NCBI GenBank assembly: GCA_003696125.1 | Contig: RFHZ01000419.1 | Span: forward strand, 1-10,994 | DNA length: 10,994 nt | Direction: 5' to 3' | Source of the DNA: Nitrospinota bacterium | Lineage (GTDB): Bacteria > Tectomicrobia > Entotheonellia > J063 | In this document: positions 116 through 10,994 of the stretch, piece after piece | How the letters are laid out: every line of letters begins with the position of its first letter | How positions within the stretch are numbered: position 1 is the first letter of the stretch | Program-made: the position numbers and the translations under genes | Notes under the pieces: model-generated | What the model was told of the DNA's origin: nothing | The model's input: the letters and a program-made list of their open reading frames with translations, nothing else | The model's database searches: none

Positions 116-799
116 TTAGTCCTCCTCCGCAAGGTAATAGACCTGGGGGGCTGTTCCCAGATCTTCCAGCAATCGGAAAGCCCGCGTTTCTCTCGCCAAT
201 TTTGCCACCGTGCTGTTCGGATCTTCCAGGTCTCCGAAATACATGGCTTTACTCGGGCAGGACTGCACGCAGGCGGGGACATAGTCCCCCTCCCGCAACT
301 CTCTCCCCTCCGCCCTGGCCTGCTCTTTGGCCTTCTGCAAGCGATGATGGCAGAAGGTGCACTTCTCGATCACCCCTTTAGGCCGTACCGCCACGTCAGG
401 ATTGAGTCCTTTCTCCAGGGGAGAGGGCCAGGAGGGGGCGGCCCAGTTGAAGTATTTCACCGTGTAGGGACAGGCATTGGCGCAGTACCGGCACCCGATA
501 CACTGGCCATAGATCTGGGCCACCAGTCCCTCTGGATCCTTGTACGTGGCCTTGGTCGGGCAGACCTTGGTGCAGGGAGGATGCTCACAATGCATGCAGG
601 GACGGGGGATCAGGCGTACCCTGGTCTCCGGATATTCGCCTTCGATGGCGTTGACCAGTTTGATCCAGAGCATCCCCCCTCCCTGCCAGGCCGCATCCGG
701 ATTGGTGGGAGCGATGTTGTTCTCCATCTTGCAGGCAATGACACAGGCCTGGCAGGCCGTGCATTTATCGAGGTCGATGACCATTCCCCAGCGAGGCAT
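116..799 (-). CDS. Four-cluster ferredoxin subunit of a MopB/NrfD complex (QrcC/PsrB/TtrB type)
   Basis: A 227-aa electron-transfer subunit of the DmsB/PsrB/NrfC superfamily. Sixteen cysteines fall in four groups: C13/16/19/23, C68/71/76/80, C100/103/106/110 and C147/150/187/191, enough for four cubane clusters. In the family this protein docks to the MopB catalytic subunit and passes electrons between it and the NrfD membrane subunit. It has no signal peptide of its own, starting directly with MPRWGMVIDLDKC, so it is probably exported folded with the Tat-tagged MopB partner, as is usual for this family. The start ATG (797-799) has an AAGGAG site 13 bases after the MopB stop. The CTFCH at residues 147-151 is a cluster ligand pair, not a heme site. 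The exact complex (Qrc-like or polysulfide/tetrathionate reductase-like) is unresolved. Confidence 0.93.
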   Translation of the reverse strand: MPRWGMVIDLDKCTACQACVIACKMENNIAPTNPDAAWQGGGMLWIKLVNAIEGEYPETRVRLIPRPCMHCEHPPCTKVCPTKATYKDPEGLVAQIYGQCIGCRYCANACPYTVKYFNWAAPSWPSPLEKGLNPDVAVRPKGVIEKCTFCHHRLQKAKEQARAEGRELREGDYVPACVQSCPSKAMYFGDLEDPNSTVAKLARETRAFRLLEDLGTAPQVYYLAEED

Positions 800-812
800 A
801 TCAGACTCCTTT

Positions 813-3284
813 CTACGCTTTGGAGAGTTTCACCCGCGTGGAAAAGAAGGCGGGAAGGCCCCCTATCGCACAGTACTCTTTCCCCAGGATCTTATTCGGA
901 TTCGCCCCTCTTCCTTTTGCCCACCGTCCATAGGCGGTATGTCCCAACCCGTAAGGCATATTCACCACGCCGGGCATGGCCCCGGGATAGAGGTGAGCCC
1001 GGACCCGGATCTTGCCCAGGGGCGATTCCATCCAGACCTCTTCCCCATCTTCGATACCCAGCTCCCTGGCCGTTTCCGGGTTAAGCTCAATCCAGGAATC
1101 CCAGCGGGTGTAGAGGTGTGGTCCCAGGATATCCTGCAGGTAGGGCTGGTTGGCACTCCGGCTGCCGGCCTGGGCCATCGGTTTGTAGGTCACCAGGTGC
1201 AGGGGGTACTCCTTTTCCTCGCCGATAAAGCGAGGAGGTTCGTAGTGGGGGAGGAAGACCAGATCTCCTCGTGTGGTGATCTTCCAGGAGGCGAGGAGTT
1301 GATCGCGGGCCTCTTCCAGGGAGACCTGACCGCTTTCCGCCTTTTGTTGGGCCAGGCGATCCAGCTCCTGGGCCAGGGTGCGGCTGTAAAACTCAAACCG
1401 GCCGCTGGGGGTGCGGAAGACCCGGTTCCAGTCGCGGTACTGGTAGACCGGATCCCACCAGCCCCCCTTCTCCTGCAACTGCTCCCAGAACTCCTCAAAG
1501 GAGCGGTACGAGGGAGCCCAGATCCCTCCCTTCTCAAAGAGTCGATACCAGAATTCCTCTGAAGGGTTTCCGGCAATGTACCCGCGTTGGGCCTTGTAGA
1601 TCCCCTCGACACCGAAGCGAAGCACTTCCTGGAAGTCTTTCCAGGGAAGTGATTTGGCCACGGTTCCCCCGAGCCGTCGCGCCAGCTCCAGGATCACATC
1701 CCCGGTGTGGCGGGTATCGTAGAGGGGTTCGATGACCGGTTGCCGCAGGCCAAAGACCGGGTACCCCAGGCTGGGAGAGACCGGATCGTCCTGCCAGCGC
1801 TCCAGATAGGTGTGATCGGGGAGCACGAGATCGGCGAACATGGTGGTCTCATCCAGGAAAGGGGAGAAGCTGACGATAAAGGGGATCTGGTCCAGGGCCT
1901 GGCGGAAGAGGTCAGGTTGGACCCGCGAGAAGCAGGGGTTGGCGTAGTAGAGCAGGGCTACTTCCGGCTTGTACGGTTTTCCCTGCTGGATGTTCTCGGG
2001 AAGGGCCTGGATCACGCTGGTGGCCAGTGGGAAGCGTGTCGTTCCCGCCTCGTCCAGACGCGGCATGTTCAGCCCCTTTCTGGCAACGGCATCCAGCTTC
2101 ACCGGCGGGAAGGGGGTAAGGGGAACCTCCCGGGGAACCAGCACCCCACCCGGGACATCGATGCTCCCCACCAGGGCGTTGAGGGCGTGGATGGCCATAC
2201 GCGTGTACACCCCATTGGAGTAGAGGGTACTGCCCCGTTCTCCGGCTGCCACCGCCGGAGAGGTCTCTCCAAATTCCCGTCCCAGCCGGATGATCGTCTC
2301 CACCGGCACCCCGGTGATACGGGAGACGGTACCGGGAGAGTACTCCTGCAGCACTAAATTCTTGAATCCCTGATGCTTCTCCCCTCGCTCATCGGTCCAG
2401 TCCTCAAAGCCGAAGGTGTGCTCTTCTACAAACTCCTGGTTGTACAGGCCCTCTTTGATCAAGACATGGGCGATACCCAGGGCCAGGGCGGCATCGGTGC
2501 CGGGACGAATGGGAATCCATTCGTTGGCCTTGATGGCGGTAACGGAAAGCCGGGGATCGACCTGCACGATCTTCCCCCGTACCGGCCGTCCCTGGCGCAT
2601 ATGACCGTACGCGTAGAGCTGGCGTACCGGAGACCACCAGGCTTCCAGAAAGCTACAGCCAAAGGAGAGGAAGTAGTTGGTGTTCTCCAGGTCGTAGACC
2701 ATCTGTTCCCTTACCCCCTGCATCAGGTAGTGGATAAGGGGGGTGCCTTCACACCCGCTGGCGGTGCTCACGTAGTTGGGTGAGCCGAAGGCCTGGACAA
2801 ACTGCTGGAGCAGCCCGGACATCAACCCCCGGTACTGCCCACCAATGACCAGCAGGGTATGCGGCTTGTTCTGTTCACGCAGGGCCTGGAGCTTGCTGGC
2901 CACCTGGCTTAACGCTTCCTCCCAACTGATCCGCTGCCACTGTCCCTCTCCCCGCTTCCCCTTGCGCTGGAGGGGACCGACGATGCGGTCAGGATCGTAC
3001 AGGACCTGTAATCCTCCCAATCCTTTGGGACAGAGTCCACCCCGGTTTATCGGGTGCAAAGGATTCCCTTCGATCCGGACCGGCCAGCCCGCGATCTTGC
3101 GTACCCGGATCCCACATCCCCCTGTGCACTGCTGACAACTGGAAACCACCCAGGACTCTGGTCCGGCCAGCACCCGCTCGCCTCCTCCCTGGCTCAAGGT
3201 CTCCAGGAAACGCAGAGCAGGTTGAGAGAGCACCGCTCCTGCTACCACTCCTCCCGCCAGTTTGAGAAAGTCACGTCTCTTCAT
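813..3284 (-). CDS. Tat-exported molybdopterin oxidoreductase subunit (MopB family; QrcB/PsrA/PhsA-like)
   Basis: An 823-aa protein of the DMSO reductase (MopB) superfamily. It starts MKRRDFLKLAGG, a twin-arginine signal, so it acts in the periplasm. C50-x2-C53-x3-C57-x27-C85 forms the N-terminal 4Fe-4S motif. C178, within SASGCEGT-like context after FGSPNYVST, sits where PsrA/PhsA enzymes carry the cysteine that ligates molybdenum. Later stretches such as IVSFSPFLDETTMFADLVLP and the C-terminal IELNPETARELGIEDGEEVWM are typical of the cofactor-binding folds. Start ATG 3282-3284 follows the cytochrome stop by 27 bases with a GGGAG/AAGG-type site. Gene order matches Qrc, whose QrcB is described as lacking Mo cofactor; the intact FeS motif and C178 argue that this homologue may be catalytic. 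The substrate (polysulfide, thiosulfate, another sulfur compound, or only electron relay) cannot be read from sequence. Confidence 0.93.
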   Translation of the reverse strand: MKRRDFLKLAGGVVAGAVLSQPALRFLETLSQGGGERVLAGPESWVVSSCQQCTGGCGIRVRKIAGWPVRIEGNPLHPINRGGLCPKGLGGLQVLYDPDRIVGPLQRKGKRGEGQWQRISWEEALSQVASKLQALREQNKPHTLLVIGGQYRGLMSGLLQQFVQAFGSPNYVSTASGCEGTPLIHYLMQGVREQMVYDLENTNYFLSFGCSFLEAWWSPVRQLYAYGHMRQGRPVRGKIVQVDPRLSVTAIKANEWIPIRPGTDAALALGIAHVLIKEGLYNQEFVEEHTFGFEDWTDERGEKHQGFKNLVLQEYSPGTVSRITGVPVETIIRLGREFGETSPAVAAGERGSTLYSNGVYTRMAIHALNALVGSIDVPGGVLVPREVPLTPFPPVKLDAVARKGLNMPRLDEAGTTRFPLATSVIQALPENIQQGKPYKPEVALLYYANPCFSRVQPDLFRQALDQIPFIVSFSPFLDETTMFADLVLPDHTYLERWQDDPVSPSLGYPVFGLRQPVIEPLYDTRHTGDVILELARRLGGTVAKSLPWKDFQEVLRFGVEGIYKAQRGYIAGNPSEEFWYRLFEKGGIWAPSYRSFEEFWEQLQEKGGWWDPVYQYRDWNRVFRTPSGRFEFYSRTLAQELDRLAQQKAESGQVSLEEARDQLLASWKITTRGDLVFLPHYEPPRFIGEEKEYPLHLVTYKPMAQAGSRSANQPYLQDILGPHLYTRWDSWIELNPETARELGIEDGEEVWMESPLGKIRVRAHLYPGAMPGVVNMPYGLGHTAYGRWAKGRGANPNKILGKEYCAIGGLPAFFSTRVKLSKA

Positions 3285-3311: not shown

Positions 3312-3815
3312 TCACTTATGACAGGCATTACAGTTCGTGGTCACTTTGCGCTGACGATGACAGTTTATGCAGTTCTCCATAGAGGGGAAGATGACCGGCC
3401 GTACCGGTGGTCGCTCACTCTCGGCAATGGCCCCATGACAGCGGGTACATGCGATTCCGGCAATGGTCACGTGCCGGCGATGGGAAAAGTAGACATGATC
3501 TGGCACCCGGTACACCTTTTTCCAGCGGATCTCTGCTCCCCGCTGGGCATGCTGCCGGATCTTTTCCTCTTCCGGGCTGTCCGTAATCGGCGAATCATGG
3601 CAGTTCAGACAGATCTCCACACTGGGAAGCCCGGCAAAATACGCCTCTTCCACGTATTCGTGACAGAAGTTACAGGGGAGATCTTGCTCCACCGCATGCT
3701 TTTTGTGGTTAAAGGCGATCGGCTGGTACACGGCAGGGTTCCAGGGTTGGGAAATCGCCACCACCGCTCCAAAGGCCAGGATAAATCCGATTAGAAAGGG
3801 CAGTATGGTTTTCAT
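3312..3815 (-). CDS. Membrane-anchored pentaheme cytochrome c (ActA/QrcA-like, c3/c7 type)
   Basis: A 167-aa multiheme cytochrome with five CXXCH motifs at residues 48-52, 69-73, 123-127, 149-153 and 162-166; the last ends one residue before the C-terminus. Extra histidines (FNHKKHA, YFSHRRHV) precede hemes 1 and 3, the spacing used for bis-His ligation in cytochrome c3/c7-like domains. A hydrophobic N-terminus (residues 4-21, ILPFLIGFILAFGAVVAI) with no clear cleavage site suggests a single-helix anchor with the hemes in the periplasm. The ATG at 3813-3815 has AAGGAG upstream. Five hemes match ActA of alternative complex III, whereas Desulfovibrio QrcA is reported as hexaheme. Placed directly before MopB, it most likely exchanges electrons between soluble periplasmic cytochromes and the complex. 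Confidence 0.93.
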   Translation of the reverse strand: MKTILPFLIGFILAFGAVVAISQPWNPAVYQPIAFNHKKHAVEQDLPCNFCHEYVEEAYFAGLPSVEICLNCHDSPITDSPEEEKIRQHAQRGAEIRWKKVYRVPDHVYFSHRRHVTIAGIACTRCHGAIAESERPPVRPVIFPSMENCINCHRQRKVTTNCNACHK

Positions 3816-3837: not shown

Positions 3838-4212
3838 TTACCGCTTTTTTGACCCTCGCTCTATCGCTGCCTGCAAGACATCATGTAACTCCTCACGATC
3901 GATCGGTTTGATCAGGTAGTAAAAGATCTTTTCCTGCCGCACCTTCCGCTGAATCTCCAGCGAATCCTTCTCGGCCAGGACGATGATGGGGAGCGAAGGC
4001 GCGATCTGCCGGATCAGGGCCAGCGTCTCCAACGCATCGATCCCGCGAAAAGGAATGCTAAAAATCGCTGCCTGGAAGGTTTTGGCCAGTAAACGCTGGA
4101 TGGCTTCTGTGGCACTGTGCACTTCTTCTACCGTGTGACGTTCTGCCGAGAGAAGCGAGAGCAGAGCAGATGGCTCTTCTTGATCACCGGTGCATACCAA
4201 GATCTCTGGCAT
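3838..4212 (-). CDS. Degenerate (phospho-Asp-lacking) receiver-domain protein
   Basis: A stand-alone 124-aa receiver-like protein, first gene of the sigma-54-driven block A. It aligns over the whole CheY-like fold with the receiver of the neighbouring regulator: FSIPFRGIDALETL here against LDIKMPGMGGVETL there. The phospho-accepting aspartate is therefore Ser52, the usual Thr/Ser switch residue is Ala80, and only D10/E12/E13-type acidic residues and the conserved Lys102 (LIKPID) remain. There is no output domain. Phosphotransfer is thus unlikely; family precedent suggests a protein-protein adaptor. I chose the ATG at 4210-4212 because GGAGG lies eight bases upstream (4221-4225). An in-frame GTG at 4240-4242 would add ten residues but has no ribosome site. 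Why a cytoplasmic pseudo-receiver leads a periplasmic respiratory operon is unknown. Confidence 0.85.
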   Translation of the reverse strand: MPEILVCTGDQEEPSALLSLLSAERHTVEEVHSATEAIQRLLAKTFQAAIFSIPFRGIDALETLALIRQIAPSLPIIVLAEKDSLEIQRKVRQEKIFYYLIKPIDREELHDVLQAAIERGSKKR

Positions 4213-4220
4213 AAGCTCTT

Positions 4221-4225
4221 CCTCC
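4221..4225 (-). promoter_or_regulatory. Ribosome binding site fixing the pseudo-receiver start
   Basis: GGAGG on the minus strand, eight bases before the ATG at 4210-4212. It favours that ATG over the GTG at 4240-4242. Confidence 0.75.
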
Positions 4226-4265
4226 CAAAAGGGCTGGGACACAGGGGAACACGGCCGGTAGAAAG

Positions 4266-4281
4266 AGCAAATTGTATGCCG
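4266..4281 (-). promoter_or_regulatory. Sigma-54 (RpoN) -24/-12 promoter of block A
   Basis: Minus-strand CGGCATACAATTTGCT has the invariant GG-N10-GC spacing and matches TGGCACG-N4-TTGCW at GGCA and TTGCT. The predicted start is near 4255, giving a leader of about 43 nt before the ATG of the pseudo-receiver gene. It shares GGCATA with the other two sigma-54 sites in the window. Confidence 0.8.
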
Positions 4282-4460: not shown

Positions 4461-4483
4461 TGACAGGCCTCCCTGTCATAATG
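4461..4483. promoter_or_regulatory. Palindromic candidate activator site (UAS), copy 2
   Basis: TGACAGG - CCTC - CCTGTCA is a perfect 7-bp-arm inverted repeat (4461-4478). Overlapping its right side, the minus strand reads CATTATGACA (4474-4483), a copy of the CATT-N-TG-W-CA motif. Its centre is about 190 bp upstream of the block A -24 element, a usual enhancer distance for NtrC-family activators. With no T run on either side, it looks more like an operator than a terminator. Confidence 0.5.
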
Positions 4484-4498: not shown

Positions 4499-5845
4499 CT
4501 ACAGGTTGTACTTCTTGATCTTGCGGTAGAGGTTTCGCTCGCTGATCTTCAGGATGCTGGCCACCTTGGCGCGATGCCCGGAAAACTCGCGCAGGAGACG
4601 GGCGATGTACTGTTTTTCTATCTCCTCCAGGGAGAGGTACCCGGCAGGGCCCTCTACGACGAAATCCCCTTCTCCATGGAGATTAGAGGGGAGGTCGTGC
4701 GGGGTGATCTCTTCCCCTTCGGAGAGGATCACGGCCCGTTCCAGGACGTTTTTCAGCTCGCGCACGTTGCCCGGCCAGGGATAGGCACAGAGCATGGCCA
4801 TGGCCTCGGAAGAGACCCGCTTCTTTCGCCGGCTGGGGATGGGCATATTTTCCAGGAAGTGTTCGATGAGAGGGGGGATATCCTCCACCCGTTCCCGGAG
4901 GGGAGGGACGGTGATGCTGATGACGTTCAGCCGGAAGTAGAGGTCTTCGCGGAATTTCCCCTCCTGCATGAGCTGGGCCAGGTTCCGGTTGGTGGCAGCA
5001 ATGATCCGCACGTTGACCGCCAGGTCTTTGGTTCCTCCTACCCGGCGAAAGGTCCCGGTCTCCAGGACCCGCAGCAGTTGGACCTGGATGGCCGGGCTGA
5101 TCTCCCCGATCTCGTCCAGGAAGAGGGTGCCCTGATCGGCGACTTCAAAGAGGCCGTGCTTTAAGGTGATCGCACCGGTAAAGGCCCCTTTCTCGTGTCC
5201 AAACAGCTCGCTCTGCAGCAGGTGCTCATGCAGCGAGCCGCAATCGACGACGATAAAGGGCTGGTCGCGACGGTTACTGGAGCGATGAATGCAGCGGGCG
5301 ATCAGCTCTTTCCCCACCCCGCTCTCCCCCTGGATAAGCACGGTGGAGTCGGTGGGAGCGACCTTTTCGATCATCTCACCGATCGCTTTCAACTGGGGAC
5401 TCTGGCCGATGAGATAGGGGAACTGCTCTCTGCGGGTGAGCTCCTGTCGTAAGGCCACGTTTTGCCGGACCAGATTCCTCTTTTCCCAGGCCTTGAGGAT
5501 CACCGATTCCAGTTCATCCAGCTTACAGGGCTTGGTCAGATAGTCGTACGCCCCCAGCTTCATCGACTGGACCGCATCGTCGATGGTGCCGTGACCGGTG
5601 AGCATGATCACCTCGGTGAGAGGGGAGAGTTCCCGGAGGCGTTTCAACGTTTCCACTCCCCCCATCCCCGGCATCTTGATATCGAGGAGGACCACATCGA
5701 TTTCGCGGCGTCTCACCACCTGGCAGGCTTCCTCTCCGCCCGGAACCGCAATGACCTCATAGCCCATAAAAGCCAGTTCCTTGCTTAATACCTTGCGGAA
5801 AGTCTCTTCATCATCGACGATCAACACCACGATCTTCGGTGTCAT
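4499..5845 (-). CDS. NtrC/AtoC-family sigma-54-dependent response regulator
   Basis: A 448-aa activator with the full three-domain layout. The receiver (about 1-120) has D11/D12, phospho-acceptor D55, T83 and K105. The AAA+ domain (about 145-385) has Walker A GESGVGKE (173-180), GAFTGA (220-225, the sigma-54 contact loop) and Walker B GTLFLDEIG (239-247). A C-terminal Fis-type HTH ends ISERNLYRKIKKYNL. It should hydrolyse ATP to open sigma-54 promoters. The start is the ATG at 5843-5845, with AAGGAG seven bases upstream; translation from further upstream would only read through the kinase gene end. The gene overlaps the kinase gene by 35 bases, marking it as the kinase's cognate partner. Three sigma-54-type promoters in this window are its natural targets, including that of its own operon. 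Confidence 0.95.
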   Translation of the reverse strand: MTPKIVVLIVDDEETFRKVLSKELAFMGYEVIAVPGGEEACQVVRRREIDVVLLDIKMPGMGGVETLKRLRELSPLTEVIMLTGHGTIDDAVQSMKLGAYDYLTKPCKLDELESVILKAWEKRNLVRQNVALRQELTRREQFPYLIGQSPQLKAIGEMIEKVAPTDSTVLIQGESGVGKELIARCIHRSSNRRDQPFIVVDCGSLHEHLLQSELFGHEKGAFTGAITLKHGLFEVADQGTLFLDEIGEISPAIQVQLLRVLETGTFRRVGGTKDLAVNVRIIAATNRNLAQLMQEGKFREDLYFRLNVISITVPPLRERVEDIPPLIEHFLENMPIPSRRKKRVSSEAMAMLCAYPWPGNVRELKNVLERAVILSEGEEITPHDLPSNLHGEGDFVVEGPAGYLSLEEIEKQYIARLLREFSGHRAKVASILKISERNLYRKIKKYNL

Positions 5846-7733
5846 GCAACAGCTCCTTTTCTGGATAGGGAATAAGCGGAATAACAGGGGAAATGCCTTC
5901 GACCGGCAGGGTAATGATGAAGGTGGCTCCCTGTTGCGGGGCACTCTCTACCCTGATTTTCCCTCCATGACTATGAATAATCGAGTGCGCGATGAACAGG
6001 CCGAGTCCGGTCCCTTTCTCCTTGCGGGTGAAGAAGGGTTCAAAGATCTTGCCCCGGTCTTCAGGGGCGATCCCCGGCCCGGTATCCCGGAAAGTAACCT
6101 GTACCCCATCCTCTGTGCAGCAGGTGGAGAGATAAAGGGTTCCACCACCTGACTCCATGGCCTGGATGGCGTTGAGGGCAATGTTGAGCCAGACCTGTCT
6201 GAGCTGGGATTCATCTCCCCGGATAAGGGGGAGGTGGGGATCGAGGTTTTCCAGAATCTGGATCTGGTTGGCCTGCGCTTCATAGGTGAGCAGGGAGATG
6301 GTATCCCGCAAGGCCCGGTTCAGATCGATGAAGTCGGAAGAGGGACGGGGTTTGCGGGAGAGGATACGGAGCTTCTCCGTGGTCTCCTTGCAACGCTGGA
6401 TTTCGGTCAGGATCAGTTGCAGGTACTCTTCCAGTTCCGTATCCAGCCTGCGCTCTGGCGGCAAGAGCTTCCAGCGTCGCTGCAACCCTTCGATACAGGT
6501 GGTGACCGAGGCGAGCGGGTTGTTGATCTCATGCGCAATACCAGAGGCGAGCACACCGAGGGAGGCCAGCCTTTCCGCATGGCTGAGACCGGCCTCTAAG
6601 TGCTTGCGGGCCGTGATATCCCGCCACACCTCTACCACCTGGAAGACCTCCCCCCGTTCGTTAAAGAGGGGAGAGGAGAAGATCTCCACGTAGCGCTCCT
6701 CTCCGTCAGCAAAACGGAGCAGGGAGACGGTGGTGTGCGGTTTTCCCTGCTGGAAGGTCTCTTCCACCGCGTTCAGGTTTCCCTGTCCCCCAAAGACGAT
6801 CGAGTGCACGGTCTGGGAAGGGGCAGAGAACTGGGTACGATAGGCACGATTGGCCAGCACCAGGTGGTGGTCTCTGTCCAGCACCACGATGCCGTCGGAG
6901 ATGCTGTTGATCAGGTTCTCCAGGTAGTCTTTGTGCTGTTGCACCTTCTGCATCGACTCTTCCAGGTTGTGTGTCATCTGGTTGAAGGCTTCGGCCAGTT
7001 GGGCGATCTCATCTTTGCCCTGCACCGGGATCGCTTCGTGCAGGTGGCCCTGGCCGATCAGGCGGCTCTTCTCCACGAAGATCTTCAGCTTTTTCAGCAC
7101 CACCTTGTTCAACAGGATACTGGCCACCAGGATGATGGAAGAGACCATGGTCACCATCCAGAGCACCATCTCCTGCAGGTTGGAACGCAGGTGCTTTTCG
7201 ATGGAGGCGAGGGAGAAGTCCATGAGGAGCACCCCGTTGATCCGCTGCCCCGGGTCATGACAGGTATAGCAGGGGGGCTTGTTGTAGATCGGGGTCATGG
7301 TGCGAAAGACCCGCTTCCCCCCTGGGGTGGTGATGATGGCCACATTCTCCCGCTGCTCCGGTGGGAAACGATGGCAGACCTGGCAGTTGGGATCGCCCCG
7401 GTTCAGCGCTTTCCCCCGCAACTCAGGCTCTGGGGTGATCCGGATGACCGCATGCGGGTCGAGGATACGCACACTCTCCACCCCTTGCTGCTGGGAGAGC
7501 TCCTTGACGATCTCGATGAGGAGTCGCAGGTCATGAGAGAGCATCGCATATTCGAGACTGCTCTCGATCAGCCGGCTCAGCTCGGTGGTAGAGTCCTTTA
7601 GGCTGCGGAACAACTGCCCACGATGCAGGTTATATAGAAAGTAAAAGAAGAGCAGGGTCAGCAAGCACACGGTGAGGACGATCCCTCCAATGACCTTCAC
7701 CTTGAGGGTTTGCATCTTTCTTAAGACCTGCAC
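5811..7733 (-). CDS. Histidine kinase with a periplasmic di-heme c sensor region
   Basis: A 640-aa membrane sensor kinase. Numbered from the chosen start: TM1 at about 14-34, a periplasmic region of about 155 residues, TM2 at about 189-209, HAMP (about 210-266), PAS (about 270-380), a HisKA box GIAHEINNPLAS with His401, and an HATPase domain with N box (NIALNAIQAM), DTGPGI and GTGLGLFIAHS. The periplasmic region carries two CXXCH motifs (CQVCH at 117-121, CYTCH at 155-159), so it probably binds two c-type hemes and senses redox state or a gas such as O2 or NO. I chose the GTG at 7731-7733, which has AGGAG eight bases upstream. Alternatives are ATG 7776-7778 or TTG 7788-7790 (no ribosome site) and ATG 7713-7715 (weak one). 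It overlaps its regulator gene. Confidence 0.93.
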   Translation of the reverse strand: MQVLRKMQTLKVKVIGGIVLTVCLLTLLFFYFLYNLHRGQLFRSLKDSTTELSRLIESSLEYAMLSHDLRLLIEIVKELSQQQGVESVRILDPHAVIRITPEPELRGKALNRGDPNCQVCHRFPPEQRENVAIITTPGGKRVFRTMTPIYNKPPCYTCHDPGQRINGVLLMDFSLASIEKHLRSNLQEMVLWMVTMVSSIILVASILLNKVVLKKLKIFVEKSRLIGQGHLHEAIPVQGKDEIAQLAEAFNQMTHNLEESMQKVQQHKDYLENLINSISDGIVVLDRDHHLVLANRAYRTQFSAPSQTVHSIVFGGQGNLNAVEETFQQGKPHTTVSLLRFADGEERYVEIFSSPLFNERGEVFQVVEVWRDITARKHLEAGLSHAERLASLGVLASGIAHEINNPLASVTTCIEGLQRRWKLLPPERRLDTELEEYLQLILTEIQRCKETTEKLRILSRKPRPSSDFIDLNRALRDTISLLTYEAQANQIQILENLDPHLPLIRGDESQLRQVWLNIALNAIQAMESGGGTLYLSTCCTEDGVQVTFRDTGPGIAPEDRGKIFEPFFTRKEKGTGLGLFIAHSIIHSHGGKIRVESAPQQGATFIITLPVEGISPVIPLIPYPEKELLHDTEDRGVDRR

Positions 7734-7741
7734 ACCTCGTT

Positions 7742-7746
7742 CTCCT
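7742..7746 (-). promoter_or_regulatory. Ribosome binding site favouring a GTG start for the kinase
   Basis: AGGAG on the minus strand, eight bases before the GTG at 7731-7733. The other in-frame starts lack a comparable site, so the true N-terminus is probably shorter than the longest open frame. Confidence 0.6.
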
Positions 7747-7833
7747 ACCCCTGGGCTGGCCGTCTCCAGCCTTTCCATCTCAGCGAACAATCCAGGAGGA
7801 AATACCCCTCCTTACTTATTATATAACAGATCG

Positions 7834-7849
7834 GGCAATTTTTATGCCA
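7834..7849 (-). promoter_or_regulatory. Sigma-54 promoter of the kinase-regulator operon
   Basis: Minus-strand TGGCATAAAAATTGCC has GG-N10-GC spacing and matches the -24/-12 consensus at TGGCA and TTGC. The predicted start is near 7823, about 90 nt before the kinase GTG. The operon encodes a sigma-54 activator, so autoactivation is likely. Confidence 0.8.
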
Positions 7850-7867: not shown

Positions 7868-7883
7868 TGGCATATTTTTTGCT
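7868..7883 (+). promoter_or_regulatory. Sigma-54 promoter of block B
   Basis: TGGCATATTTTTTGCT has exact GG-N10-GC spacing and matches TGGCA and TTGCT fully, the best of the three sites. Predicted start near 7894. It is divergent from the kinase promoter, with only 18 purine-rich bases (7850-7867) between the two -24 elements. Confidence 0.85.
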
Positions 7884-8141
7884 CTACACTGTAGAAGGAT
7901 AGATCCTACCCCCTCACTCTGTGATCTGCAGAAGATTTTTGACCGGCAAGGAGCCGAGAAGTCTGGAAGAACCCGGGGTTTCAGCGGCTGTATGGCTTCT
8001 GCCTGCAGGGAGGTGGTGTGCACAGGCGAGACATTTTGTCACCTCGGAGTGACAGAATGCCTCGTTGCTGGTGCAGGCCACTCCAGTCGGAGAAAACAGG
8101 AAGTTTGGGACGCTAGCATGAGGAGGTAAAGGAGAAGATTG
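7884..8141 (+). other. Long leader of block B without a gene
   Basis: About 245 nt lie between the predicted start of transcription and the octaheme cytochrome ATG. I see no convincing small gene here on either strand. Near the 5' end are two mutually exclusive short hairpins: CTAC-ACT-GTAG (7884-7894) and GTAG-AA-GGAT-AG-ATCCTAC (7891-7909). GCCTG/CAGGC arms lie around 8001-8027, and the large inverted repeat at 8032-8059 falls inside the leader. No known riboswitch was recognised. Confidence 0.5.
8032..8059. promoter_or_regulatory. Large inverted repeat, candidate binding site of the NtrC-type regulator
   Basis: CATTTTGTCAC - CTCGGA - GTGACAGAATG: two 11-base arms with one mismatch around a six-base centre. 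It is about 197 bp upstream of the kinase promoter's -24 element and about 155 bp downstream of the block B promoter, so one site could serve both. The left-arm ten-mer recurs exactly at 4386-4395. No T run follows, so it is not an ordinary terminator. Confidence 0.65.
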
Positions 8142-8984
8142 ATGGAAAAATTCCTACAGCTTTGGCAACGGGTACCAGAACCCCTGACCCGGCCGGCAGC
8201 CGTCTTTATCGTGGCCATCATCATCGCTATCGGCATCATCCTCTCTTTCCGGCGCAAGCTTCCCGACGCCGTCGTCCGCCTGGCCATTGTGGCCGTGATC
8301 CTGATCGGGGTGGTGCTCTTCATCCGCATCCATGTCATCCCACCCGCGTTGAAAGAGACCGGATTTCAGAGGGCCTCGGCTATTGCGCGAGAGATCTCCA
8401 AGAACCTCAAGTATGCCGGGGCAGACACCTGCACGGAGTGTCATGAGGAAGAGTACCAGACCAAGAGGGAAGGGCATCACCGGAACCTCTCCTGTGAGAC
8501 CTGTCATGGCCCGGCCCAGGCACATGCCGACGACCCTTCTGAGACCAGGCCACCGGCACCACGCGAGAGGAAGTTCTGTCCCTTATGCCATACCTATAAT
8601 CCATCCAGGCCCACCGGCTTTCCCCAGATCAACCCCCGCACCCATAATCCCCTGGAGCCGTGCATAACCTGTCACAGCCCCCATGACCCGGAGCCCCCGG
8701 AGGTGCCCCGCGCCTGCGAGGCCTGCCATGCCGAAATCGTCCGCACCAAGGCGGTTTCTCCCCATGCTCCCTTGGAGTGTACCACCTGTCACACCGTTCC
8801 TGATGAACATAAGGTGACCCCCCGGAGTGTACGACCGAGCAAACCGGAGCAGAGGGAGTTCTGCGGGAAGTGTCACCGGGTGGGGACACAGGATGGGGAG
8901 ATTCCCAAGATAGACCTGGCCACCCATGGAGAACGGTATCTCTGTTGGCAATGTCATTATCCACATATGCCGGAGGCGAGATAA
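8142..8984 (+). CDS. Octaheme cytochrome c with two N-terminal membrane helices
   Basis: A 280-aa multiheme cytochrome. Two hydrophobic segments (about 18-36 and 43-62) precede a hydrophilic domain with eight CXXCH motifs at C97, C118, C146, C174, C192, C213, C241 and C268. Additional histidines (GHH, THNP, SPHDP, SPHAP, YPHMP) can serve as distal ligands. With two helices and a short loop, the hemes should face the same side as the N-terminus; periplasmic is required for heme attachment. I chose the ATG at 8142-8144, with AAGGAG seven bases upstream (8129-8134); a TTG one codon earlier is also in frame. The stop overlaps the next ATG (TAATG). The cytochrome - FeS - NrfD order recalls Geobacter Cbc-type (CbcSTU) and Nrf modules, so it probably exchanges electrons between the quinone-linked membrane unit and periplasmic carriers. 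Confidence 0.93.
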   Translation: MEKFLQLWQRVPEPLTRPAAVFIVAIIIAIGIILSFRRKLPDAVVRLAIVAVILIGVVLFIRIHVIPPALKETGFQRASAIAREISKNLKYAGADTCTECHEEEYQTKREGHHRNLSCETCHGPAQAHADDPSETRPPAPRERKFCPLCHTYNPSRPTGFPQINPRTHNPLEPCITCHSPHDPEPPEVPRACEACHAEIVRTKAVSPHAPLECTTCHTVPDEHKVTPRSVRPSKPEQREFCGKCHRVGTQDGEIPKIDLATHGERYLCWQCHYPHMPEAR

Positions 8985-9781
8985 TGGAGAGACGAGGATT
9001 TCTAAAGCAGTTCATCTTCCTGATCGGAGCGATCGGAGGGGTCTTCAAGGGTGTATCGGTTACGGCCAGAGCCACCACCGAATCTACCGGGCAGGACTAT
9101 GACACCCGCGAGTACTATGCGCGGGCCGGGGTCGAGTATGATCCCAAGGAGCACTACTATGGGATGGGGGTTGAGGTGGATAAGTGCATCGGGTGTGGGC
9201 GCTGTGTGGTGGCCTGTAAAACGGAGAACGAGGTACCAGAGGAGCCCTTCTTCTTCCGCACCTGGGTGGAGAGATACGTGATCAAGACCGATGGGGAGGT
9301 CGTGGTCGAGAGCATCGATGGCGGGACCAAGACCTTAGAACAGGGGGTTCCCGAGGAGAAGGAACTGCTGCGGAGCTTCTTCGTTCCCAAGCTGTGTAAC
9401 CAGTGCGACAACCCCCCCTGCGTGCAGGTCTGCCCGGTAGGGGCCACCTTTCAGACCGAGGATGGAGTGGTCCTGGTGGATAGTGATCGGTGCATCGGTT
9501 GCCGGTACTGCATTCAGGCCTGCCCTTACGGGGCGCGCTATCTGCACCCGGTGACCCGGACCGCGGATAAATGTACCTTCTGCTATCACCGCATCGTGCG
9601 CGGGTTGCTCCCGGCCTGTGTGGAGGTCTGTCCCACCCAGGCCAGGATCTTTGGGGATTTAAAGAGCCAGGCCAGTCCCCTGGTCCGGTTCCGCCGCATG
9701 CATAAACTGCATGTGCTCAAACCCTTTCTCAACACGGAGCCCAAGGTCTTTTATAGCAATCTAGATGGAGAGGTGAGATGA
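8984..9781 (+). CDS. Tat-exported four-cluster ferredoxin subunit (NrfC/DsrO type)
   Basis: A 265-aa protein starting MERRGFLKQFIFLIGAIGGV, a twin-arginine signal (RRGFLK) with a hydrophobic core, so it is exported folded. Cysteines group as C68/71/74/78, C138/141/146/150, C170/173/176/180 and C197/200/212/216, giving four 4Fe-4S sites. The start ATG at 8984-8986 overlaps the cytochrome stop, with GGAGG seven bases upstream. An open frame continues upstream to 8870, but that part lies over the cytochrome gene. Unlike the block A ferredoxin it carries its own Tat signal, which fits the absence of a MopB partner in the visible part of block B and the DsrO/NrfC pattern. It should relay electrons between the octaheme cytochrome and the NrfD-like subunit. 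Confidence 0.94.
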   Translation: MERRGFLKQFIFLIGAIGGVFKGVSVTARATTESTGQDYDTREYYARAGVEYDPKEHYYGMGVEVDKCIGCGRCVVACKTENEVPEEPFFFRTWVERYVIKTDGEVVVESIDGGTKTLEQGVPEEKELLRSFFVPKLCNQCDNPPCVQVCPVGATFQTEDGVVLVDSDRCIGCRYCIQACPYGARYLHPVTRTADKCTFCYHRIVRGLLPACVEVCPTQARIFGDLKSQASPLVRFRRMHKLHVLKPFLNTEPKVFYSNLDGEVR

Positions 9782-10994
9782 ATGCAGAAACCACGGCGAG
9801 ACTCTACGAGCTGCTGGAACAGGTTACCGGTTATATCTACCCGAACGAAATAGAGATTCACTGGTCGATCCTGATCGTGGTCTACCCCTACGTCACAGGG
9901 CTGGTGGCCGGAGCCTTTATCCTGGCCTCCCTGGTCAAGGTATTTAACGTGAAGGAGGTGGAACCCGCTTACCGGCTCTCCCTGCTGACCGCGTTGGCCT
10001 TCCTGCTGGTGGCCCCTTTCCCCCTGTTGCTCCACCTGGGCCGACCGGAGCGGTCGTTTGAGATCTTCCTGACCCCCAACCTGCGCTCGGCCATGGCCAT
10101 GTTCGGCTTTGTTTACGCCTGGTACCTGATGGTGGTGCTCTTGCTGGAGATCTGGTTTGAGTACCGCCGCGACCTGGTCTTATGGGCGGCAAAAGAGCGG
10201 TTCCCCATGCGCTGGATTCACCGGCTCCTGGCCCTCTTTTCCAAAGATGTCAGTACCGAGGCGGTGAATTTCGACAAAAAGGCGGTAAAGGCCATCACCA
10301 TCATCGGTATCCCTTCCGCCTTCCTCCTGCACGGGTATGTCGGATTCATCTTCGGCTCGGTGAAGGCCAACCCCTGGTGGAGTAGCGTGCTGATGCCCAT
10401 CGTCTTCCTCTTCTCCGCCATCGTTTCCGGCATTGCCCTGGTCATCCTCCTCTACATGGTCATCAAGCCGCTACGCGGGGAGCCGATAGACATGAAGTGT
10501 CTCGACCGCATGGCCTCTTTCCTCTTCTATGCGGTCATCGTCGACTTCTCCCTGGAGGCGCTGGATTTCATCCACCGGCTGTACGAGAGTGAGGAATCGA
10601 TAAAGATCTTATCCGAGCTGGTCATCAACAAGCTCCTGGTCAGCCTGGTCGTTATCCAGCTCCTCCTGGGGATGATCCTCCCCCTGGGAATCATGGCGAG
10701 CATCAAACTGTTCAATTTCAATGAGGAGCTGAGGCGACTCTTCTACTTCGTCTCCGTGATCCTGATCCAGGTGGGCATCTTCACCACCCGCTGGAACGTG
10801 GTCATCGGTGGCCAGTTGTTCTCCAAGAGTTTTCGAGGACTGACCACCTATAAGATGGAACTGGTAGGCATCGAGGGACTCCTGGTCAGCATCGCCCTCC
10901 TGATCTTACCCTTTATCATTCTAACCATTCTCTTAAAGATCCTCCCCCCCTGGGAACCGGCCTGGGAGAGCCCGAAGAAGGGGATAGGAGAGGA
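9778..10994 (+). CDS. NrfD/PsrC/DsrP-like integral membrane subunit (3' end outside window)
   Basis: An open frame of at least 405 codons with no stop before the window edge. It starts at the ATG overlapping the ferredoxin stop (ATGA, 9778-9781), with GGAG upstream. The protein begins MNAETTARLYELLEQVTGYI and has about nine visible hydrophobic segments. Signature stretches such as LLLHLGRPER after helix 2 and RWNVVIGGQ...SFRGL near the end are typical of NrfD-family subunits (NrfD, PsrC, DsrP, HybB), which bind quinone and anchor the FeS subunit. It would oxidise menaquinol or reduce menaquinone in exchange with the two preceding proteins. The direction of electron flow, and whether a further subunit follows, cannot be told from this window. 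Confidence 0.94.
   Translation, partial: MNAETTARLYELLEQVTGYIYPNEIEIHWSILIVVYPYVTGLVAGAFILASLVKVFNVKEVEPAYRLSLLTALAFLLVAPFPLLLHLGRPERSFEIFLTPNLRSAMAMFGFVYAWYLMVVLLLEIWFEYRRDLVLWAAKERFPMRWIHRLLALFSKDVSTEAVNFDKKAVKAITIIGIPSAFLLHGYVGFIFGSVKANPWWSSVLMPIVFLFSAIVSGIALVILLYMVIKPLRGEPIDMKCLDRMASFLFYAVIVDFSLEALDFIHRLYESEESIKILSELVINKLLVSLVVIQLLLGMILPLGIMASIKLFNFNEELRRLFYFVSVILIQVGIFTTRWNVVIGGQLFSKSFRGLTTYKMELVGIEGLLVSIALLILPFIILTILLKILPPWEPAWESPKKGIGE

Follow-up and report, generated by a model that had tools for sequence, protein, structure and literature searches.

The window analysed here, a stretch of 10,994 nucleotides from a Nitrospinota genome, encodes a membrane-bound histidine kinase with two CXXCH motifs in its sensor region. 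This raises the question of whether the protein carries two c-type hemes in the periplasm and, if so, what such a sensor would report on. An earlier note on this DNA had described both motifs as lying between the membrane helices of a kinase that is paired with an NtrC-type regulator and set between two multiheme respiratory operons, and had suggested that it senses the periplasmic electron-carrier pool or a gas. The positions of the features discussed are given in Table 1.

Table 1. Features of the window, in order of position. Residue numbers refer to the kinase read from its TTG start.
Feature	Residues	Position	Strand	Basis or remark
QrcC-like iron-sulfur subunit		116..799	-	
Molybdopterin enzyme subunit (ArrA/PhsA/QrcB-like) with Molybdop_Fe4S4 domain		813..3284	-	
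QrcA-like cytochrome, five CXXCH		3312..3815	-	
Receiver-only protein		3838..4242	-	Ser replacing the phospho-accepting Asp
Putative sigma54-type promoter CGGCATACAATTTGCT		4266..4281	-	Consensus match; ahead of receiver/Qrc-like operon
NtrC-type response regulator		4499..5845	-	Receiver with Asp, GAFTGA sigma54-activator domain, Fis-type HTH
Histidine kinase		5811..7790	-	TM1, two-motif Cache sensor, TM2, HAMP, PAS, HisKA, HATPase_c
Periplasmic single-Cache sensor domain	50-210	7161..7643	-	AlphaFold2, Foldseek/VIA-align, 3b42/3b47 profile match
Predicted heme site 2, CYTCH	174-178	7257..7271	-	Homologous to GSU0935/GSU0582 heme site
Predicted heme site 1, CQVCH	136-140	7371..7385	-	Added segment, strands 2/3
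Met83, predicted distal ligand of heme 2	83	7542..7544	-	Alignment (= Met60 of GSU0935)
Putative sigma54-type promoter TGGCATAAAAATTGCC		7834..7849	-	Consensus match; ahead of kinase
Putative sigma54-type promoter TGGCATATTTTTTGCT		7868..7883	+	Consensus match; toward divergent cytochrome operon
Membrane-anchored cytochrome, eight CXXCH		8139..8984	+	
Tat-type iron-sulfur subunit (TtrB/DsrO-like)		8984..9781	+	
NrfD-type membrane subunit		9778..10992	+	Runs past window end

Read from the TTG codon, the kinase comprises 659 amino acids; other candidate starts are a GTG at 7733 and an ATG at 7715. The span of 5811–7733 given in the note holds for the GTG-start version, and the strand, on which the note was silent, is the minus strand. 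Hydropathy analysis places the membrane helices at approximately residues 28–56 and 207–233, and because CQVCH and CYTCH lie between them, exactly 38 residues apart, both motifs are assigned to the periplasm, as had been proposed. The kinase order described earlier was also found intact, with Pfam models for HAMP (227–278), PAS (295–396), HisKA (413–480) and HATPase (525–631) all scoring above cut-off. A chance origin of the motifs was ruled out by shuffling of the sensor domain, where at least one CXXCH occurred in 0.3% of permutations and two in none out of 200,000, together with their conservation among homologues.

A search of genome contigs, complemented by profile searches in sets of 193 and 24 genomes, supplied the homologues, of which 52 domains were compared. 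The second motif is present in 51 of these, as CX2CH (15), CX4CH (32) or CX3CH/CX5CH (4), and Met83 is kept in 49. The first motif, CX2CH, was found in 41 of the 52, a share that is inflated because the search profile was built mainly from two-motif members; the 11 domains lacking it retain at most one Cys. Conservation of the motifs, on which the note had made its heme assignment depend, is thus seen in silico. Asn170 and Gly186 are invariant in the family alignment, and in the CX4CH form the motif His is often followed, two positions later, by another His. Beyond the motif residues and Met83, the window domain has no His or Met that this alignment shows to be widely kept, and a conserved distal ligand for heme 1 is therefore not evident from it. 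In a tree calculated without the motif columns the window protein groups with that of locus L154 (support 86) and next with L010 (94), and motif 1 changes about five times, compared with 10 in shuffles. The two-motif sensors of Citrifermentans bremense (L167, Geobacteraceae) belong to the same family, and no second sensor copy was found in five genomes of the window's own phylum. Within this sample, two-motif Cache kinases occur widely and make up one coherent family, in which CX4CH is a second form of site 2. Relatives with site 2 alone occur at L172, L120, L168/L121, L177, L178 and L139; in L172 and L120 a lone Cys near site 1 resembles a degenerated heme site.

With a profile built from eight relatives, the only convincing solved relatives were the Geobacter chemosensor domains 3b47 and 3b42; a 48-sequence profile matched 3b42 at E 2.6e-13, and Cache domains of WalK as well. 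In the profile alignment CYTCH falls onto the heme motif of 3b42. When the numbering of 3b42 is fixed through Cys140, Cys143 and His144, the first Met of GYMM is residue 60, and this Met60 of GSU0935, the distal heme ligand of that protein (PMC8396549), is aligned with Met83 of the window protein. The AlphaFold2 model of the sensor domain is a single Cache fold predicted with confidence (pLDDT 91.9), consisting in order of a long N-terminal helix, strands 1 and 2, the CQVCH segment, strands 3 and 4, a short helix, the last strand and a C-terminal helix. In this model the CQVCH segment contains a helix (domain residues 85–91) and CYTCH is located at the short helix (domain residues 123–127). 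Foldseek and VIA-align group the predicted domain with Cache sensors, WalK giving Z 14.6 with an rmsd of 2.5 over 135 residues and GSU0935 giving E 6.6e-6; the large rmsd to GSU0935 is expected from the domain swap of that protein. Going by the alignment to 3b42 and the placement within the predicted fold, CYTCH (site 2) corresponds to the heme site already known from these chemosensors, and CQVCH (site 1) has been added between strands 2 and 3.

A whole-protein Pfam scan matched the sensor region only below threshold. PF21563 (Mcp40H-20_sensor, cut-off 27) gave 23.1 bits with the whole protein and 27.6 bits with the isolated domain, of which the second half alone was matched; 41 of 48 family members match this model. 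The PF11845 cut-off was missed by the window domain (19.4 against 24.1 bits), and none of the Pfam models in the scan describes both heme sites. GSU0935 and GSU0582 (3b42, 3b47; PF21563) have in common with the window protein a periplasmic Cache domain between two transmembrane helices, with heme site 2 and the distal Met aligned; they are, however, chemotaxis receptors with one heme, whereas the window encodes a kinase whose sensor has a further predicted heme site between strands 2 and 3. The sCache_heme or Tll0287-like domains (PF11845, DUF3365) are likewise extracytoplasmic Cache domains, often fused to kinases, and carry a covalent heme of the kind predicted in the window, but they are defined by one CXXCH, whereas the window domain has two and scores below the PF11845 cut-off. 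GSU0582 and GSU0935 are counted within the sCache_heme family by the authors of the family paper (PMC12889525), and the window domain may be akin to this family despite its score. A two-heme c-type sensor domain, as claimed in the note, is the best reading of the window kinase, heme being predicted from motif conservation and from the homology of site 2.

Downstream of the kinase, on its own strand, follow the NtrC-type regulator, the receiver-only protein, the QrcA-like cytochrome, the molybdoenzyme, the QrcC-like protein and the start of a further ORF (from approximately 111, cut by the window end), which by gene order should be NrfD-like. The octaheme-FeS-NrfD operon diverges upstream, and the gene and domain calls therefore agree with a position between two multiheme respiratory operons. 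The pairing with an NtrC-type regulator was likewise confirmed: the two genes overlap, and the kinase boxes, receiver Asp, sigma54-activator domain and Fis-type HTH of an NtrB/NtrC-type pair are all found. The receiver-only protein lacks the phospho-accepting Asp in three of three loci, having Glu in L010 (6300–6677) and Lys in L154 (5019–5426, minus strand) at the position of the Ser in the window. Given this shared absence, a pseudo-receiver seems to be part of the conserved module.

The downstream complex is termed 'Qrc-like' only, because its QrcA (104 against 180 bits), QrcB (344 against 440) and QrcC (301 against 400) scores lie below the NCBIfam equivalog cut-offs. The order of multiheme cytochrome, molybdopterin-type subunit and FeS protein is that of the QrcABCD menaquinone reductase, with an NrfD-type protein next in L154. 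QrcB of QrcABCD is reported to be without redox cofactor (PMC13059093), whereas the large subunit in the window matches Molybdop_Fe4S4 and may be an active molybdoenzyme from the ArrA/PhsA side instead of a Qrc reductase.

A strict pattern, requiring the GG/GC core and a match at 10 or more of the 11 consensus positions, found only three sigma54-type sites in the window. All are intergenic and correctly oriented, and shuffles of the two gaps gave expectations of 0.015 and 0.002 sites. A looser pattern yielded 6 sites in the whole window against 4.3 expected, which is not above chance, and the promoter argument therefore leans on placement. L154 has a sigma54-type site in the same gap, ahead of its receiver-Qrc operon. 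One of the two L154 sites was discounted, being a T-run after a hairpin; what carries the argument is then the window itself, the other L154 site and the sites ahead of GcvH-FeS-NrfD operons in L141, L147, L150 and L160. Taken together, the homologous loci have 13 upstream intergenic sites in 716 kb and the control loci 3 in 319 kb, an apparent difference of about twofold. The genome encodes sigma54, and also cytochrome c assembly proteins. Both intergenic regions further contain an 18-bp palindrome with TGTCA/TGACA half-sites, namely TGTCAC-N6-GTGACA (8037–8054) and TGACAGG-N4-CCTGTCA (4461–4478); since the half-sites stand in opposite senses, the idea of a shared regulator operator was dropped.

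In L154, from a genome related at domain level only, the order of the window (kinase, NtrC, receiver, QrcA, molybdoenzyme, QrcC) is preserved through NrfD, with a kinase that has no PAS domain. In L010 (Nitrospinota, 43% identity) the kinase, NtrC regulator and receiver are followed by an 11-motif cytochrome, and in L142 an 11-motif cytochrome comes after the kinase and before Qrc genes, of which QrcA (187 against 180 bits) and QrcB (470 against 440) pass the NCBIfam cut-offs. Several further two-motif kinases adjoin GcvH-FeS-NrfD operons. At L141 (11061–17022), L150 (2228–9654) and L160 (6854–12529) a two-motif kinase and NtrC regulator lie by an operon of GcvH-like, HmcB-like FeS and NrfD genes with a sigma54-type site ahead of it, and in L141 and L150 a Peptidase_M54 (archaemetzincin-like) protein adjoins the regulator.

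For a statistical comparison, genes within 8 kb of 34 two-motif kinases were set against those around 25 motif-free kinases from the same genomes; these replaced an earlier control of kinases from mixed phyla, which reduced taxonomic bias while the effect stayed. FeS genes were near 21/34 two-motif kinases and 0/25 controls (p 2e-7), multiheme genes near 16/34 and 1/25 (p 2e-4) and NrfD near 9/34 and 0/25; an NtrC gene was adjacent in 24/34 and 7/25. The search suggested in the note, for homologues with both motifs beside cytochrome operons, was thus successful, both in these statistics and in the synteny.

With moderate confidence, we propose that the kinase is a two-heme redox sensor of the periplasm which would switch its own sigma54-dependent gene and both respiratory operons through the NtrC regulator. 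Because kinase and regulator share an operon with a respiratory electron-transfer complex, it is probably the periplasmic redox state that is read. Heme 2 (C174/C177/H178) would be the ancestral sensing heme, common to the Geobacter chemosensors, with Met83 as its likely distal ligand, bound or released with the redox state; this switch would move the N-terminal helices leading into the membrane. The added heme 1 (C136/C139/H140) would most likely serve as an electron entry or second redox site, equilibrating the sensor with the periplasmic cytochrome pool, and its role is the least certain step. Passed on through HAMP and PAS, the heme state would set the level of autophosphorylation; the phosphate would go to the overlapping NtrC-type regulator, which together with sigma54 would turn on the kinase gene, the QrcA-molybdoenzyme-QrcC operon and the divergent octaheme-FeS-NrfD operon.

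Both hemes may instead be present while the signal is NO (or CO) on an open heme iron, the NtrC regulator answering nitrosative conditions. We consider this unlikely, yet it is the chief rival, because tight NO binding, with no stable complex formed with oxygen, has been shown for a characterised signalling relative, a P. azotoformans sCache_heme protein linked to HAMP, which behaves as an NO sensor (PMC12889525). The domains of GSU0582 and GSU0935 bind both NO and CO (PMC8396549), and a heme 1 without conserved distal ligand would suit an open gas-binding site. On the other hand, the counterpart of Met83 is the redox-linked ligand of GSU0935, the residue is retained almost throughout (49/52), and the surrounding genes encode quinone-cytochrome electron-transfer complexes, while no gene for NO handling was recognised within the window. 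Sequence cannot decide between the electron-carrier pool and a gas; the Met83 match and the electron-transfer neighbours lead us to favour redox.

That heme 2 alone senses, heme 1 being structural or vestigial with no signalling role, appears improbable. Such a division would agree with a near-universal motif 2 and a motif 1 that is missing in 11/52 domains after some five changes on the tree, but motif 1 remains intact over long distances (41/52, an upwardly biased share since the profile favours two-motif members) and, where absent, is wholly lost, bar one leftover Cys in two relatives. This all-or-none behaviour points to selection acting to keep the heme site whole. We give hardly any credence to a scheme without attached heme, in which the Cys/His motifs would hold another metal, such as zinc, or be engaged in disulfides. 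Although CXXC motifs are able to bind metals, site 2 has a homologous counterpart that was seen as a heme site in crystal structures, its CX2CH and CX4CH variants fall inside the CX2-4CH heme c signature for Geobacter (PMC8396549), and the genome has cytochrome c assembly genes; moreover, site 2 is found without site 1, so that they do not jointly make up a single metal site.

The novelty implied for a di-heme kinase was not upheld. The window protein has a second c-type heme motif inside one periplasmic domain, the mark of a di-heme sensor, and signal transducers with two such motifs already appear in published lists: GSU0591 and GSU0599, a protein with two-component annotation, both from Geobacter (PMC8396549), and Adeh_2011 and Adeh_3383 of Anaeromyxobacter (PMC3831638). 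Compared by motif counts alone, these four resemble the window protein in combining the same sensor family with an extra c-type heme motif. The 2026 sCache_heme family paper defines the family by one motif and leaves two-motif forms unmentioned (PMC12889525). With two-motif sensors listed before and two-motif kinases widespread in the present data, the window protein is a further member of a recognised, widespread heme-sensor family, whose two-heme versions have, in the literature consulted, been counted but not studied. The present analysis adds family-wide conservation, the CX4CH form, matched neighbourhood statistics and a conserved sensor-regulator-Qrc-like operon. GSU0598, beside GSU0599 by locus tag, may be the sigma54 regulator BccR needed for the low-potential complex CbcBA, in which case GSU0599 would offer the most suitable experimental model.

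For c-type heme Cache sensors, both redox potential and gases are under discussion as the signal, and because the conserved operon with a quinone-cytochrome complex offers a concrete regulatory target, this alternative becomes directly testable. As a tentative generalisation, which we regard as possible though somewhat doubtful, two-heme Cache kinases might be a widespread wired redox gauge, in which heme 1 would take electrons from the pool, heme 2 would switch its Met, and sigma54 regulators would set the complexes that fill or drain the pool, a loop that would operate in several phyla.
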